A DNA stretch of 22,447 nt from a virus: the IMG/VR virus record IMGVR_UViG_3300000115_000224, positions 1-22,447 of that record; one strand, given 5' to 3'. Below the pieces are notes generated by a model that worked only from the letters and a program-made list of their open reading frames with translations, did no database searches and had not been told where the DNA came from. Shown piece after piece: positions 1,006-11,349 of the stretch. The position numbers were made by a program, and so were the translations under genes. Numbering within the stretch: the stretch's first letter is position 1; every line of letters starts with the position of its first letter.

Positions 1006-1371
1006 CTCAAGCGCGTCCTTCACGGTCCCGTACTCATGGCCCTCCGTTCCATTCAAACCATCCCTCGTTAAGCTAGGTCCTTGATTTCCCTTAAACAAAT
1101 ATAGCTTCTTGAAGGAAAGATCCTTTACTAAGAAGAAATTTGCGCCGCCTCGCGCCCAATATGCCATATTCCACGCAACTTGATGCGCAGATAAATTTAT
1201 TGCGTTGCTTTTGATTGTTTTGAGTTCTACCCAAAAAGGCACACCATCGGCAACAATGTGAACGTCAGGTATTCCCCCGCCATGCTTGTTTTCAATCCGT
1301 GTTGCAAACCACTTACTCGGCAGGTTCCGCCTTATCGACTTCCAAAAGTTCGCCTCCGGTCCCGTGCTCAT
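961..1371 (-). CDS. VRR-NUC / Holliday-junction resolvase-like nuclease
   Basis: This 136-residue protein is a compact PD-(D/E)xK nuclease. Visible are HGGGIPD with Asp36, an ELK with Glu49 and Lys51, and a following SAHQ with Gln64. This is the order expected for VRR-NUC enzymes, which cut branched or flap DNA. Length fits stand-alone phage VRR-NUC proteins. The ATG at 1371 lies inside the end of the small terminase gene (59-base overlap) and has only a weak GGATA ribosome site. Its position after a terminase subunit suggests resolution of branched concatemers during packaging, which is inference. The C-terminus (ALRPHAASVLGLDL) contains one copy of a duplicated GC-rich element. Confidence 0.8.
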   Translation of the reverse strand: MSTGPEANFWKSIRRNLPSKWFATRIENKHGGGIPDVHIVADGVPFWVELKTIKSNAINLSAHQVAWNMAYWARGGANFFLVKDLSFKKLYLFKGNQGPSLTRDGLNGTEGHEYGTVKDALEALRPHAASVLGLDL

Positions 1372-1864
1372 TTGGTGTTATATCCTTATAACTTGTCTCT
1401 ATTTGGAACGCTTGTGGATACTGTTTCTGCAAAGCCGCAAGTCGAGATGTGATCTCATCCCTAGATAATTGATCAATTGTGTTGATGGTTTCACGCCTGT
1501 CGATAGTCAGGCCCCCCAATGCTGACCGTATTTTCTCTGCGTTGATTGCCGCAGAAAACATCCCCGCTTCCTCTGCCCCACGGGATAATTGAAACAAGCG
1601 TTCAAGCTGTCCGATTGTGGTTACACCATACCGGCGCTCTCGTTCGTCCCTGAGTTCTTCAATATACTCCACAACATGTGGGTAGTTTTTTCCGTTCAAC
1701 AAACGGGAAGCGTGTTCCGCTGCAAGATCCGCTTTGTATCCCGCTTTACGGGCACTCTCCGCATTGCTGTATATGCCTTCGACGACATGTTTAGCAAAAG
1801 TCATTTGACGAGTAGTTAGGATGCGGTCGTGCTTATCTTCAATCTCAGCTTTAATAATCGGCAT
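1313..1864 (-). CDS. terS: Terminase small subunit (Terminase_2-like)
   Basis: The product would recognise phage DNA for packaging. The N-terminal region reads LTTRQMTFAKHVVEGIYS, then NAESARKAGYKADLAAEHAS, LLNGKNYPHVVEYIEEL and RRYGVT. That is the typical order of the helix-turn-helix DNA-binding part of Terminase_2 small subunits, followed by a helical region and a variable tail. The frame opens at a TTG at 1900. The ATG at 1864 is preferred because GAGAAAG lies just upstream and the protein then starts MPIIKAEIEDKHD, giving 183 residues. It overlaps the VRR-NUC gene by 59 bases. No large terminase subunit follows, which is unusual. Confidence 0.7.
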   Translation of the reverse strand: MPIIKAEIEDKHDRILTTRQMTFAKHVVEGIYSNAESARKAGYKADLAAEHASRLLNGKNYPHVVEYIEELRDERERRYGVTTIGQLERLFQLSRGAEEAGMFSAAINAEKIRSALGGLTIDRRETINTIDQLSRDEITSRLAALQKQYPQAFQIETSYKDITPNEHGTGGELLEVDKAEPAE

Positions 1865-1998: not shown

Positions 1999-2112
1999 TT
2001 GAGGACACTACCTTGTCCTCAAATAAAAACGTGTCCTCAAACCCAACACCGTATAAACCCTTGTATACAAACAATAAGTAAGAGGGGTGAGGACGGTGAG
2101 GACGGTGAGGAC
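1999..2112. repeat. Cluster of TGAGGAC-core motifs (iteron- or operator-like)
   Basis: TTGAGGACAC at 1999-2008 is perfectly inverted by GTGTCCTCAA at 2031-2040. A further inverted half, GTCCTCAA, lies at 2015-2022. Three perfect tandem copies of GGTGAGGAC follow at 2086-2094, 2095-2103 and 2104-2112. Six copies of the seven-base core (T)GAGGAC therefore fall in 114 bases of otherwise AT-rich DNA. The arrangement resembles binding sites for a regulator or a replication initiator. Confidence 0.65.
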
Positions 2113-2127
2113 AAGATTTTCACTTAG

Positions 2128-2165
2128 AAAAAAAAAAAAAAACTAACGAGGGGGCAAATCCCCCT
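2128..2165 (-). terminator. Possible leftward terminator (G5/C5 hairpin plus 15-base T tract)
   Basis: GGGGG (2150-2154) and CCCCC (2160-2164) pair around a CAAAT loop, with one extra A-T pair. Read on the minus strand, the hairpin is followed after about six bases by fifteen T residues (A run 2128-2142). It could stop antisense transcription from entering the control region or the terminase operon. The gap between stem and T tract is longer than usual, so confidence is limited. Confidence 0.35.
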
Positions 2166-3164: not shown

Positions 3165-3677
3165 ATGCCTAATCATTGTTATCAGCAGGTTTTTATAGAG
3201 GGTCCACATTGTTTGGTGTCTCGTTTGTGGGATGGATTAACCGAGAACGGTTATGATCCTTACAATGGCGGTCGATGTAAGGGTCCACAGTTTTGTCAGT
3301 TGATTGTTCCGATGCCCATTGAGCAGTGGCAAGCGCCCAAGACTAACTGGCGGGGGCACGAGGTTTCCGGTTGGTATGACTGGCGCGTTAATAACTGGGG
3401 CACGAAGTGGGATGTGTGTGAGGTTACGATTGATGGGGAGTTTTTACCGACCCATCCAGACGAGGACCAGTGGTCTGCGCTACGTTCAACCACGAGCACG
3501 TCCTTTGATTTTAGTTGTTGGACGGCATGGGGTCCACCTACTCCTGTTTGGGACAAGTTGCATGAGATAGGTGTTGATGTTCATGCTACTTATCAGGACG
3601 AGGGCGGCATGTTTGAGGGTGAGTATGCCTATGGTACGGATCGTTCGTGGGAGCCTGAGTTGATGGAGGAGGCGTAA
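3165..3677 (+). CDS. Api92-like / DUF1281 protein with ferredoxin-like domain
   Basis: The 170-residue protein starts MPNHCYQQVFIEGP and has the core WYDWRVNNWGTKWDV followed by an FSCWTAWGPPTPVW segment. This is the signature of the DUF1281 (YubB/Api92-like) family found on phages and plasmids, which has a ferredoxin-like fold and no known biochemical role. The name refers to the fold only, and no iron-sulfur cysteine set is present. GGAGG at 3151-3155 supports the start. It sits mid-operon among early-type genes, so an accessory or host-directed role is plausible. Confidence 0.85.
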   Translation: MPNHCYQQVFIEGPHCLVSRLWDGLTENGYDPYNGGRCKGPQFCQLIVPMPIEQWQAPKTNWRGHEVSGWYDWRVNNWGTKWDVCEVTIDGEFLPTHPDEDQWSALRSTTSTSFDFSCWTAWGPPTPVWDKLHEIGVDVHATYQDEGGMFEGEYAYGTDRSWEPELMEEA

Positions 3678-3928
3678 TGGGACAACGGAGGCTAGGGATG
3701 TCTTGTTCGGATTGGACTCAGACTTTTGGGCACAAGATGCGGGGGCATCGGTACAGCGAGGCCCTTAATCAAACTGATTTTGGATATATTGTGGGGCTGA
3801 CGCAGCACCAAGTGTCTCGATATGAGCGTGGCGTTGTGCCTGTTCCTATGGAGGTTCAGGCAAAGATAAGCTTGGCTGTAGGAATACTAAAGGAACAAAA
3901 AGTTATGGAGGTTGAGATCGATGGGTAA
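3677..3928 (+). CDS. Cro/C1-type helix-turn-helix regulator (83 aa)
   Basis: The segment from about residue 31 (NQTDFGYIVGLTQHQVSRYE) continues with RGVVPVPMEVQAKISLAVGI. It fits the five-helix XRE fold: QTDFGYIVGLT is the first helix and turn, and QHQVSRYERG is the recognition helix. About 30 residues precede the domain. The ATG overlaps the previous stop by one base, with a GGAGG inside that gene's end. It is the obvious candidate to bind the palindrome or the TGAGGAC cluster upstream of this operon, but that link is inference. Confidence 0.8.
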   Translation: MGQRRLGMSCSDWTQTFGHKMRGHRYSEALNQTDFGYIVGLTQHQVSRYERGVVPVPMEVQAKISLAVGILKEQKVMEVEIDG

Positions 3929-4580: not shown

Positions 4581-4803
4581 GAAGCTTGAAAAGAGGCATT
4601 GGGCCGAGGACAATTCGGTAACTAATGCTGTTCGGGGTTTTCAAAGTCGTTTGAACCAAGGTAGTTCACTTGGGGGGAAGTTGTACGTTCATCTTCCGCC
4701 CTCGAACCGCAAGGAGCGACGGCTTTTAGGTAAGGAACAAAAGAGAAAGAAAGTCATGGTAGCCAAGAAGGAGATAAACGATGTTTCTAAAAATATGGAA
4801 TAG
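4573..4803 (+). CDS. Hypothetical basic protein (76 aa)
   Basis: An upstream in-frame GTG exists at 4567, but the ATG at 4573 has GGAG at 4562-4565 in good position. The product starts MPKKLEKRHWAEDNSVTNAV. Its second half is very basic, with RKERRLLGKEQKRKK, which suggests nucleic acid or ribosome binding. No family is recognised. It overlaps the previous zinc protein by eight bases and the next gene by 23. Confidence 0.55.
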   Translation: MPKKLEKRHWAEDNSVTNAVRGFQSRLNQGSSLGGKLYVHLPPSNRKERRLLGKEQKRKKVMVAKKEINDVSKNME

Positions 4804-5023
4804 GATTATGGCAAAGCGGATGTCGAATGTGCGTCTTACTCGCAAGGAGCAAGTTCTCCACGAGTTAAATCGTGGAGCGGGGACGGCCCGTCAGTTATCG
4901 GATCGCATGGGTTTAAGGTTAAGTATTATTCGCCCTAACTTGTCTGCTTTGCATAAGTCTGGATTGATCCGAGACACTAAGACTTACGCTGGATTAGAGA
5001 TTGTTTGGGAGGTTGTGAAGTGA
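4781..5023 (+). CDS. Winged helix-turn-helix protein (80 aa)
   Basis: From about residue 18 it reads LTRKEQVLHELNRGAGTARQ, then LSDRMGLRLSIIRPNLSALH, then KSGLIRD. This is a classic winged-helix pattern: helix 1, then ARQLSDRMGL as helix 2, SIIRPNLSALHKSGLI as the recognition helix, and a short wing. The ATG at 4781 is chosen because AAGGAG (4768-4773) precedes it. An internal ATG at 4808 would still leave the whole domain. It is a second DNA-binding protein in the same early operon and probably a transcription regulator. Confidence 0.7.
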   Translation: MFLKIWNRIMAKRMSNVRLTRKEQVLHELNRGAGTARQLSDRMGLRLSIIRPNLSALHKSGLIRDTKTYAGLEIVWEVVK

Positions 5024-5782: not shown

Positions 5783-5930
5783 TGTTACCTCCTAGTTTTT
5801 TTTTACCTGTAACGTACAAAACAAATAACTGTTGCGTCATTTGATCCAACTCTCTCCGCAACTCACGGTTCTCCTCGCAAACGCGCTCGTATTCGTGGCG
5901 GTTAATCATATTAAAGCTCCACTTTGTCAT
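5742..5930 (-). CDS. Small coiled-coil protein (62 aa)
   Basis: The centre (YERVCEENRELRRELDQMTQ) is a heptad-like coiled coil, so the protein is probably a dimer. The ATG at 5930 overlaps the previous stop as ATGA. A second ATG at 5909 is possible. Near the 3' end it reads through nine A residues as Lys-Lys-Lys and then through the AGGAGG used by the next gene. No family is recognised. It may pair with one of the DNA-binding proteins flanking it, by position only. Confidence 0.55.
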   Translation of the reverse strand: MTKWSFNMINRHEYERVCEENRELRRELDQMTQQLFVLYVTGKKKLGGNIDGTRQNEGVGLD

Positions 5931-6337
5931 ATTTTTCTGTGTTCAAAGACAAACTCATCGTGAAGGGTTCGGCACGTAAGATACCCGTCTCGTTTAAGTT
6001 CCTTTAACATTTGATGTGCTGCGCCTTCCTTCAACTTCATACGTTTTGCAAGGTCGGATACAGTCCAAGCTTCGCGGGTCTTCAACACGTCAAACACCAC
6101 GGCTCGTAAATCTACTTTGTTCCTGTAGTTCCGCCCGTTTATAGCTGAGTTAGGTTGCAGGTTCAGCCGCATATGTTCGTTCTCTATTGATGCTAGTTGT
6201 TTTGGGGTCATCTTGTTTTGTTCTCTCTCCATGATTTGCTTTCTTTGGTTTTGGATTAATTTTTGTTGCTGTTCCAACTCAAGGAACTGCCTGTCCAAGT
6301 CGCTATGCTGTGGGAAGCCTACTATGTTATCATCCAT
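5927..6337 (-). CDS. Winged-helix DNA-binding protein with coiled-coil N-terminus (136 aa)
   Basis: The N-terminal third contains LDRQFLELEQQQKLIQNQRK, a glutamine-rich coiled coil. The C-terminal part (VDLRAVVFDVLKTREAWTVS) continues with DLAKRMKLKEGAAHQMLKEL and KRDGYLTCR, a winged helix-turn-helix with a recognisable recognition helix and wing. The ATG at 6337 is chosen because GGAGG lies five to nine bases upstream. The longer frame opens only at a TTG at 6349. It is probably a dimeric regulator acting within the helicase operon. Confidence 0.7.
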   Translation of the reverse strand: MDDNIVGFPQHSDLDRQFLELEQQQKLIQNQRKQIMEREQNKMTPKQLASIENEHMRLNLQPNSAINGRNYRNKVDLRAVVFDVLKTREAWTVSDLAKRMKLKEGAAHQMLKELKRDGYLTCRTLHDEFVFEHRKI

Positions 6338-6499
6338 GTTCACCTCCAAAATTAGGTGCCCCGTGCTATCACACAGGGACTAACCGTATCGTGGTTTCTG
6401 CCGACAAGATCACAAGGAAGAAAGACATGTGTTATACAACACGGAGGTTTCCTTGCTCTTGCTGCTGTGGTTTATGCGGAACATCCAAAACGCGCCCAC
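6338..6499. other. Spacer inside the helicase operon
   Basis: These 162 bases separate two leftward genes and hold no convincing coding frame. Short leftward frames of 24 codons (from 6484) and 19 codons (from 6428) lack ribosome binding sites. GTGTTATACAACAC at 6429-6442 is a small inverted repeat with five-base arms and could be an operator or part of a weak promoter. Nothing stronger is visible. Confidence 0.4.
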
Positions 6500-9810: not shown

Positions 9811-11349
9811 ATGTCAGTAGCAAAAAGAATGATGTCCGCGTTTGAGGGATCAGACCTTGGGTATCTTGTTACTAGAGTTAAGGGCAAAGGTCACAGAGGT
9901 AAAACTGAGGCCGAGTATCGCACAATTCACGGACAAATTGACGAGAGCGTTATGCAATTGCATTTGGACGGCGTAAGTGGGGTGGGAGTTGTCCCTATTT
10001 CTTCTGGTAATGTATGTATGTTTGGGGTGATCGATATCGACGTGTACGATCTTGACCACAAGGATTTACAGGCAAACATTCAACGTTTGAAGTTGCCGTT
10101 GGTACACTGCCGCTCAAAGTCAGGCGGGGCGCATCTCTATCTCTTTTTTAAGGATTGGGAATCTTGTGCCATGGTTCGGGAACTATTGGTTGAGATGCGT
10201 TCTGCGTTGGGTTTTAGCGGTTCGGGAGAACTATTTCCCGCTCAAGAGGTAATTAATGATAAGGACGGGGAGGTTGGAAACGGGATTAACCTTCCGTATT
10301 TTATGTCAGAAACACCCACCCGCTACGCTTATAATAAAAAAGTGGAGGCGTTGGAGGTTGAGGAGTTCTTAGACTTTGTGGAAAAGAACCGAGTTTCGAT
10401 GGCCTCGGTACAAGAGATCGAGTTAAGCGGGGATCAAAAGTATTTTGAAGACGGACCAATCTGTCTACAAATCCTTGCGTCGATGGGCAAGATCACAGAG
10501 AACCGAAACATTTTTATGTTTAACGTGGGCGTGTATTGTAAAAACAAATGGCCTGATGATTGGGAAACTCACCACGAGGAATACAATCGACAGCTATGTG
10601 ATCCTCCTCTGCCGTCGAAGGAAATTGTCGATCAGCAAAGATCTTTAAAGAAAAAGGACGGATACTTTTACCAATGCACAATGTGTCCTCTCAAGGACTA
10701 TTGTAACAAGTCAAAGTGCAAGATGCAAAAGTATGGCATCGGATCGAGTTCTGAGGATCAGGTTCAGATAGGGAGTATTACTATCATGTTATCGGAACCG
10801 CGCTTATACTTCATGAGTGTGGAGGGAAAGTCACTCACGCTTTCAACAGATCAATTACAAAACCCCACGCTTTGGCAAAAAGCTTGTATGGAACAGTTGG
10901 ATATGATGCCGCCTGTACCAACACGGGGAGATTGGCAACAGTTAATCAATGGTATGTTAAGTACCTCAACCAAACAAGAGGTGGCACCAGAGCTTACACG
11001 GGCAGGGAAGTTTGAAAACCTGCTCCGCAAATTCTGCACAAGCCACATTCGAGCAGTAACACCCGAAGAGGTTCTGTCTGGGAAACCTTGGACAGACAGA
11101 GGCAAGACGATGTTTCGCATCGATTCTTTCGAAAAGTTCCTACGCAACAATGACTTCACTGATTTTACTACGGGTCGGATACAGGAGCACATTCAACGTT
11201 TGAACAGCAACGAAGAGTGCCATGGGAAACTAAACTACACGAAGGACGATGGTAAAAGATCAAACACACGAGTGTGGTGGGTTCCTGAGTTTGAAAACTT
11301 AGACGTAGAAATAGATGTTAAGGAGAATAAATATGATATCCCATTCTAA
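9811..11349 (+). CDS. Archaeo-eukaryotic primase (TOTE-type AEP) with Cys cluster
   Basis: The product would make primers and possibly extend them. The AEP core shows a DxD catalytic pair in FGVIDIDVYD (Asp75, Asp77), a nucleotide-binding SKSGGAHLYLFF segment (His108), and GNGINLPY (157-163), in the order of TOTE-type primases. A second domain holds a four-cysteine cluster CTMCPLKDYCNKSKC (Cys289, 292, 298, 303), which may bind zinc or an iron-sulfur cluster, as in primase large subunits. The last residues are KYDIPF, similar to the SSB tip. GGGAG six bases before the ATG supports the start. The end overlaps the ribosome site and start of the next gene. Confidence 0.78.
   Translation: MSVAKRMMSAFEGSDLGYLVTRVKGKGHRGKTEAEYRTIHGQIDESVMQLHLDGVSGVGVVPISSGNVCMFGVIDIDVYDLDHKDLQANIQRLKLPLVHCRSKSGGAHLYLFFKDWESCAMVRELLVEMRSALGFSGSGELFPAQEVINDKDGEVGNGINLPYFMSETPTRYAYNKKVEALEVEEFLDFVEKNRVSMASVQEIELSGDQKYFEDGPICLQILASMGKITENRNIFMFNVGVYCKNKWPDDWETHHEEYNRQLCDPPLPSKEIVDQQRSLKKKDGYFYQCTMCPLKDYCNKSKCKMQKYGIGSSSEDQVQIGSITIMLSEPRLYFMSVEGKSLTLSTDQLQNPTLWQKACMEQLDMMPPVPTRGDWQQLINGMLSTSTKQEVAPELTRAGKFENLLRKFCTSHIRAVTPEEVLSGKPWTDRGKTMFRIDSFEKFLRNNDFTDFTTGRIQEHIQRLNSNEECHGKLNYTKDDGKRSNTRVWWVPEFENLDVEIDVKENKYDIPF

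Follow-up and report, generated by a model that had tools for sequence, protein, structure and literature searches.

For many environmental tailed phages the origin of replication and its initiator are both unknown. A 22,447-bp phage record from IMG/VR, analysed over its whole length and here termed the window, poses the question in a concrete form: six copies of the heptamer TGAGGAC lie within 114 bp between terS, which encodes the small terminase subunit, and the early genes that diverge from it. What does such an array do, and which protein reads it? The preliminary description of the locus left two options, an operator array or an iteron origin, and proposed as binders the Cro-type, winged-helix and AlpA-like proteins encoded nearby.

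The repeat array and its surroundings

On re-reading the sequence, all six cores were found at the coordinates first given for them, and the same holds for the inverted pair (TTGAGGACAC at 1999-2008 with its perfect reverse complement at 2031-2040), the further inverted half (TGTCCTCAA, 2014-2022) and the three tandem units (GGTGAGGAC three times, 2086-2112). The features of the region are as follows.

1999-2112, no strand: iteron array, proposed core of the replication origin, with six TGAGGAC cores (3 + 3)
2000-2006, plus strand: core 1, TGAGGAC
2015-2021, minus strand: core 2, TGAGGAC
2033-2039, minus strand: core 3, TGAGGAC
2061-2070, no strand: AT-rich spacer between the repeat groups, with the palindrome TTGTATACAA; candidate unwinding region
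2088-2094, plus strand: core 4, TGAGGAC, unit 1 of a head-to-tail 9-bp triplet
2097-2103, plus strand: core 5, TGAGGAC, of the 9-bp triplet
2106-2112, plus strand: core 6, TGAGGAC, of the 9-bp triplet
2128-2142, plus strand: 15-base A-tract beside the tandem triplet
1313-1864, minus strand: terS, small terminase subunit (Terminase_2 match), conserved neighbour of the array

The second group (2088, 2097 and 2106, all on the plus strand) is spaced at exactly 9 bp. TGAGGAC occurs nine times in the window, compared with 2.6 expected, and six of the nine copies are in the 114-bp array; in 150 dinucleotide shuffles of the window, the maximum for a complex 7-mer was three copies per 114 bp. The A-tract and the hairpin (GGGGG-CAAAT-CCCCC, 2150-2164) noted earlier just beyond the array are both present. 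Most of the tabulated arrays have an A-tract or T-tract close to the triplet; L407 has none of at least seven bases. As minor observations, a palindrome similar to that of the spacer, GTTTGTATACAATAAG, is present in the contig L005; the GC-rich hairpin (2148-2165) together with a minus-strand T-run is terminator-like, and its GGGGATTTGCCCCC stem is also found in the closest relatives.

The array separates terS, on the minus strand, from a plus-strand early/replication region that encodes small genes, Pam3 gp33-like and gp34-like proteins and an AEP-type primase, as well as an AlpA-like protein, a UvrD-like helicase and a DNA polymerase I-like protein (named from their translations). A gene for an SNF2-type helicase is within the same stretch on the minus strand. 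Elsewhere in the window, the GC-rich CGCGTGGGGCCGCAGGGC occurs twice at 943-1006, near the 3' end of a VRR-NUC-like gene.

A fixed layout with changing letters

Searching with terS yielded 80 loci, and the array was compared in about 30 related phage contigs; because most contigs are fragments, only those spanning both the array and the primase gene were counted for pairing. TGAGGAC repeats are found by terS essentially in L001 alone, which is 97% identical to the window, a result that resembled a refutation until the repeats of each relative were derived from its own sequence. All relatives examined in detail have an array at the window-equivalent place, upstream of terS. The preliminary description had made its reading depend on conservation of the array in related phages, and in this regard only the letters fail: L001 keeps TGAGGAC, and the others keep the array with another core.

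The cores observed by lineage are TGAGGAC, TGAGTAC, TGATTAC, TGTTTAC, TGAGAAC, TGGATAC, GATTTAC and TCGTTAC. De novo word counts on the 18 longest contigs gave GTACTCA, GTAATCA, GTAAACA, GATTTAC and others as the top repeats by terS, and contigs added later had TGAGAAC, TGGATAC, TGAGTCA/TGCGTCA and TCGTTAC. The lineage-private cores show no enrichment elsewhere in their own contigs.

The two triplets face each other in most relatives, and in four contigs (L254, L271, L250 and L274) the cores share a single frame, at 88, 97 and 107 (minus strand) and 149, 158 and 167 (plus strand) from the terS start, save that L274 is without one unit and L250 has one unit mismatched. Within that frame the core is TGTTTAC in L254 and L271, TGAGAAC in L250 and TGAGTAC in L274. 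Since the layout is fixed and the letters differ, the repeats of a genome all change together while the scaffold stays. Two contigs, L265 and L266, have mixed cores upstream of terS, TGAGTCA and TGCGTCA, which end in CA instead of AC; these perhaps represent a genome caught between two specificities. In a distant clade with Arg at primase residue 475 (L424, L427, L428) the repeats are GTATCAC/TGTATCA, with an ambiguous register relative to the other cores.

The primase and its predicted winged helix

The protein that tracks the core, as described below, is the AEP-type primase of the early/replication region, the relevant features of which are as follows.

9811-11349, plus strand: AEP-type primase, 512 residues, proposed reader of the array (Pfam AEP-TOTE PF22548, 3.1e-13)
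10999-11286, plus strand: predicted C-terminal winged-helix domain of the primase, approximately residues 397-492 (AlphaFold2 models)
11221-11286, plus strand: wing beta-hairpin, residues 471-492, which varies along with the core (primase pair comparison)
11227-11229, plus strand: codon of Lys473, linked to core position 4 (covariation)
11233-11235, plus strand: codon of Asn475, which predicts core position 3 (covariation)
11257-11259, plus strand: codon of Arg483, linked to core position 2 (covariation, three variant rows only)
11263-11265, plus strand: codon of Asn485, linked to core position 5 (covariation)

The protein matches the primase family PHROG 21866 (6.7e-74), and its catalytic part resembles CRISPR-associated Prim-Pol (CAPP) structures, at 1.5e-6 by sequence and 1e-10 by fold; searches of the protein against Pfam and PHROG gave no helicase family match. 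AlphaFold2 was run on the whole primase and on its last 123 residues, and both models have helices at 437-446 and 454-464 followed by a two-stranded wing (471-477/483-492), with a local pLDDT of about 85-92. The C-terminal domain is thus predicted to have a winged-helix fold, for which the best Foldseek matches, all weak (best E 0.09), are PadR, FOXC2 (FOX) and TFIIE.

Covariation of the core with the primase wing

An unbiased scan was made of the 15 protein families with enough members, comprising more than 2,000 alignment columns. For core position 3 the top column was primase residue 475, with an adjusted mutual information of 0.85 (next 0.54), and for position 4 it was residue 473 (0.70 versus 0.58 for the next); residues 483 and 485 were top or joint top for positions 2 and 5, where few genomes vary. 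The pairing of residue 475 with core position 3, i.e. Asn with A, Ala or Ser with T, and His or Arg with G, fits all 31 distinct genomes, with L265 and L266 combining Asn475 with mixed A/C at this position. The exceptions at position 4 are Val473, which occurs with both T and G, and Arg473 in L265. In these comparisons the row for L217 (TGAGGAC) takes the wing of L209, the two primases being identical over the 470 residues of L217.

On a tree of the 31 genomes there are at least 10 changes at core position 3 and at least 16 of the whole core, and when the winged-helix domain is left out of the tree, 8/8 independent pairs agree for position 3 (p 0.008; 7/7, p 0.016, in an earlier run). When the rule for residue 475 had been fixed, all 10 newly fetched contigs, some of them near-duplicates, agreed with it, four having Ala with T (L271, L287, L317, L398) and six Asn with A (L274, L299, L381, L385, L387, L406). 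The pairs His with G (L289 group) and Arg with G (L407, L412) are states that were met after the rule was set.

Pairwise comparisons place the changes in the wing. Between the L254 and L265 primases 10/33 wing residues differ, compared with 4/474 elsewhere (p 2.8e-10), and between those of L250 and L274 the figures are 11/33 and 5/474 (p 5e-11), whereas primase pairs with the same core have no changes in residues 455-490 despite up to 37 elsewhere. At the DNA level L254 and L265 are 98-100% alike across most of the replication region that they share, identity dropping at the wing, and their arrays also differ. The primases of L381 and L387 differ at 26 residues, only one of which is in the wing, i.e. 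Asn485/Thr485, matching G/T at core position 5. The close relatives G015 (TGATTAC) and G016 (GATTTAC) differ at the primase C terminus. Recombination could have carried the wing and the array together, though they are 7-12 kb apart.

Asn with A, His or Arg with G, and Ala or Ser with T are ordinary residue-base preferences. Because the single-residue covariation recurs in unrelated branches and follows these preferences, it is most simply explained by direct readout through the wing. We give roughly even chances to the more specific proposal, based on comparative sequence data, that residues 473, 475, 483 and 485 would read four adjacent bases in a one-residue-to-one-base manner, and that the origin would have been repeatedly rewritten into many mutually exclusive specificities.

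Role of the array and alternative explanations

We consider it likely that the array is a replication origin, the iterons of which would be direct targets of the AEP-type primase that the phage encodes, acting via its C-terminal winged helix; the six repeats are probably the landing sites at which the primase of this ocean phage begins copying the genome. The reasons for taking the bound site to be an origin are that its apparent reader is a primase, that the iterons are in tandem, that an AT-rich spacer and tract are present, and that the cumulative GC skew has its minimum there. Iteron origins are a known kind of origin; the array has both several short repeats, mostly at a helical-turn-like spacing (six cores, with the 9-bp triplet), and adjoining AT-rich DNA (the spacer and the 15-base A-tract). 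As to the cumulative GC skew, which the preliminary description had proposed to compute, it does turn at the array, with the minimum in the window at 2072, and the minimum is at the array or within approximately 230 bp of it in five of eight contigs (G000, G001, G003, G004, G007). This evidence is weakened because transcription diverges at the same place, which alone can cause a turn, and because in G009, G015 and G016 the global minimum is 3-5 kb from the array. Of the two options originally left, the iteron origin is the better, because the primase covaries with the core and the skew turns there.

In the following mechanism, the direct contact, the action of the array as an origin, and the melting and priming of the DNA are inferred. 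The wing hairpin, near residues 473, 475, 483 and 485, would read core positions 4, 3, 2 and 5, respectively; several primase copies could load side by side on the repeats, given their 9-bp spacing and arrangement in two triplets; the AT-rich spacer or the A-tract would then open, and the primase would synthesise the initial primers for the PolA of the phage. Within a lineage the wing would change jointly with every repeat, such that each phage has a private origin specificity.

An alternative, which we regard as unlikely, is that the primase binds the array chiefly to repress or switch the divergent promoters of terS and the early genes, rather than to start replication there. The position of the array between diverging genes, and its overlap with the terS start in several relatives, are consistent with such a role; that the reader is a primase is less so, the skew turn, tandem iterons and AT-rich tracts suit an origin, and a scan of the array, by consensus only, found no clear sigma-70 promoter.

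Much less probable is a lambdoid-style immunity or early control region, with the array serving as operators for a repressor of the Cro, winged-helix or AlpA-like type, despite the mixture of direct and inverted sites between divergent operons and the HTH genes nearby. In lambdoid-style regions the repressor gene would be expected to covary with the operator, and in none of these proteins does any column follow the core as it does in the primase. Among 33 genomes, all of which have the array, only the window contains the Cro-type gene (3677-3928), and the same is true of one winged-helix gene (5927-6349). The AlpA-like protein is nearly identical in G015 and G016, the cores of which differ, and its best column scores 0.14, compared with 0.85 for primase residue 475; the other winged-helix gene (4781-5023) reaches 0.49. 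All of the binders first proposed were accordingly rejected as readers of the core.

To a packaging site (pac or cos) read by the small terminase we assign an equally small probability. Wherever terS could be reached in a relative, the array is directly upstream of it, but TerS is 100% identical in G015 (TGATTAC) and G016 (GATTTAC), and its top column scores 0.39; TerS was therefore rejected as the core reader. That the repeats are chance or low-complexity sequence without function, as the short core and the lack of conservation of its letters beyond the closest relative might suggest, has a negligible probability given that none of the 150 shuffles exceeded three copies, and is refuted by the comparison with relatives, in which the layout is kept to the base and the letters change in concert.

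Relation to known initiators

The alpha protein of satellite phage P4 has a Toprim primase and a fused helicase, whereas the primase studied here is of the AEP type and no helicase domain was found in it. The two are alike in that alpha is a primase-bearing initiator that binds origin repeats via a winged-helix domain (summarised in PMC4234260); switching of wing and repeats is not described for P4 in the papers examined. In the initiator helicases SaPI Rep and SCCmec Cch2 a C-terminal domain recognises origin iterons (PMC7581432), but both belong to staphylococcal elements, act as helicases or primase-helicases and have their origin beside the rep gene, in contrast with a stand-alone primase and an array 7-12 kb away. 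Geminivirus Rep provides a precedent for initiator residues (in its iteron-related domain) that vary with iteron sequence across viruses (PMC10653810), although it starts rolling-circle replication in small ssDNA viruses of plants, with a different fold and mechanism.

Origin recognition by a helix and wing has been proposed for PolpTN2, PrimQH and initiator primases such as ColE2-P9 Rep (PMC5862659). PolpTN2 and PrimQH combine an AEP primase with a C-terminal winged helix, and the primase in the window has both (the winged helix from AlphaFold models); the role of the former was suggested from fold, whereas here covariation points to specific wing residues. Priming by the AEP primase-polymerase of phage NrS-1 needs a specific 8-nt sequence (PMC7102993), which has two genomic copies; that enzyme, unlike ours, has a fused helicase domain, and neither an iteron array nor covariation is reported for it (PMC7102993). 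Near-identical Gordonia phages have a replication initiator that differs in its winged-helix domain (PMC10684548); matching origin repeats are not known to have been reported for them, whereas here the repeats change with the wing.

We found no description of a primase-iteron pairing of this type in open-access papers, and a residue-resolved, repeatedly switched pairing in an environmental phage group appears to be new. A probable origin and its putative reader can here be named from sequence alone. The residue-to-base rule would amount to a lock-and-key code for the start of replication, which is testable on natural variants, and the variants themselves form a natural data set on DNA reading by a winged-helix wing. 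They also raise the question of why iterons and initiator change together so often; a phage might thereby evade satellites or defences that hijack its origin, or exclude relatives that infect the same cell.

Arrays in more distant phages

A blastn search against cultured phages gave almost no matches, and a scan of IMG/VR for the tandem GGTGAGGAC pair gave 21 contigs, one being a known close relative. A scan of bacterial genomes gave only distant relatives, with at most 45% identity in the long matches; most of these were in metagenome bins, and no host could be named from them. In Pelagibacter phage HTVC023P (L332, 1276-1367) approximately five copies of CTAGGAAA closely precede terS, forming the same kind of array around a different core. 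Phage 023Pt_psg01 (L330, 2584-2800) has seven TGTGCCA, some 9 bp apart, with a T-tract, near terS and in a stretch without annotated genes. In a contig binned as Burkholderiales that encodes a related primase (L343, 11238-11327), AGACGTAAT is repeated three times, with more copies, beside an AT-rich tract. In L145 (4563-4858), a GATTTAC phage, ACTCAAC occurs 11 times in 300 bp, apparently within a repetitive gene.
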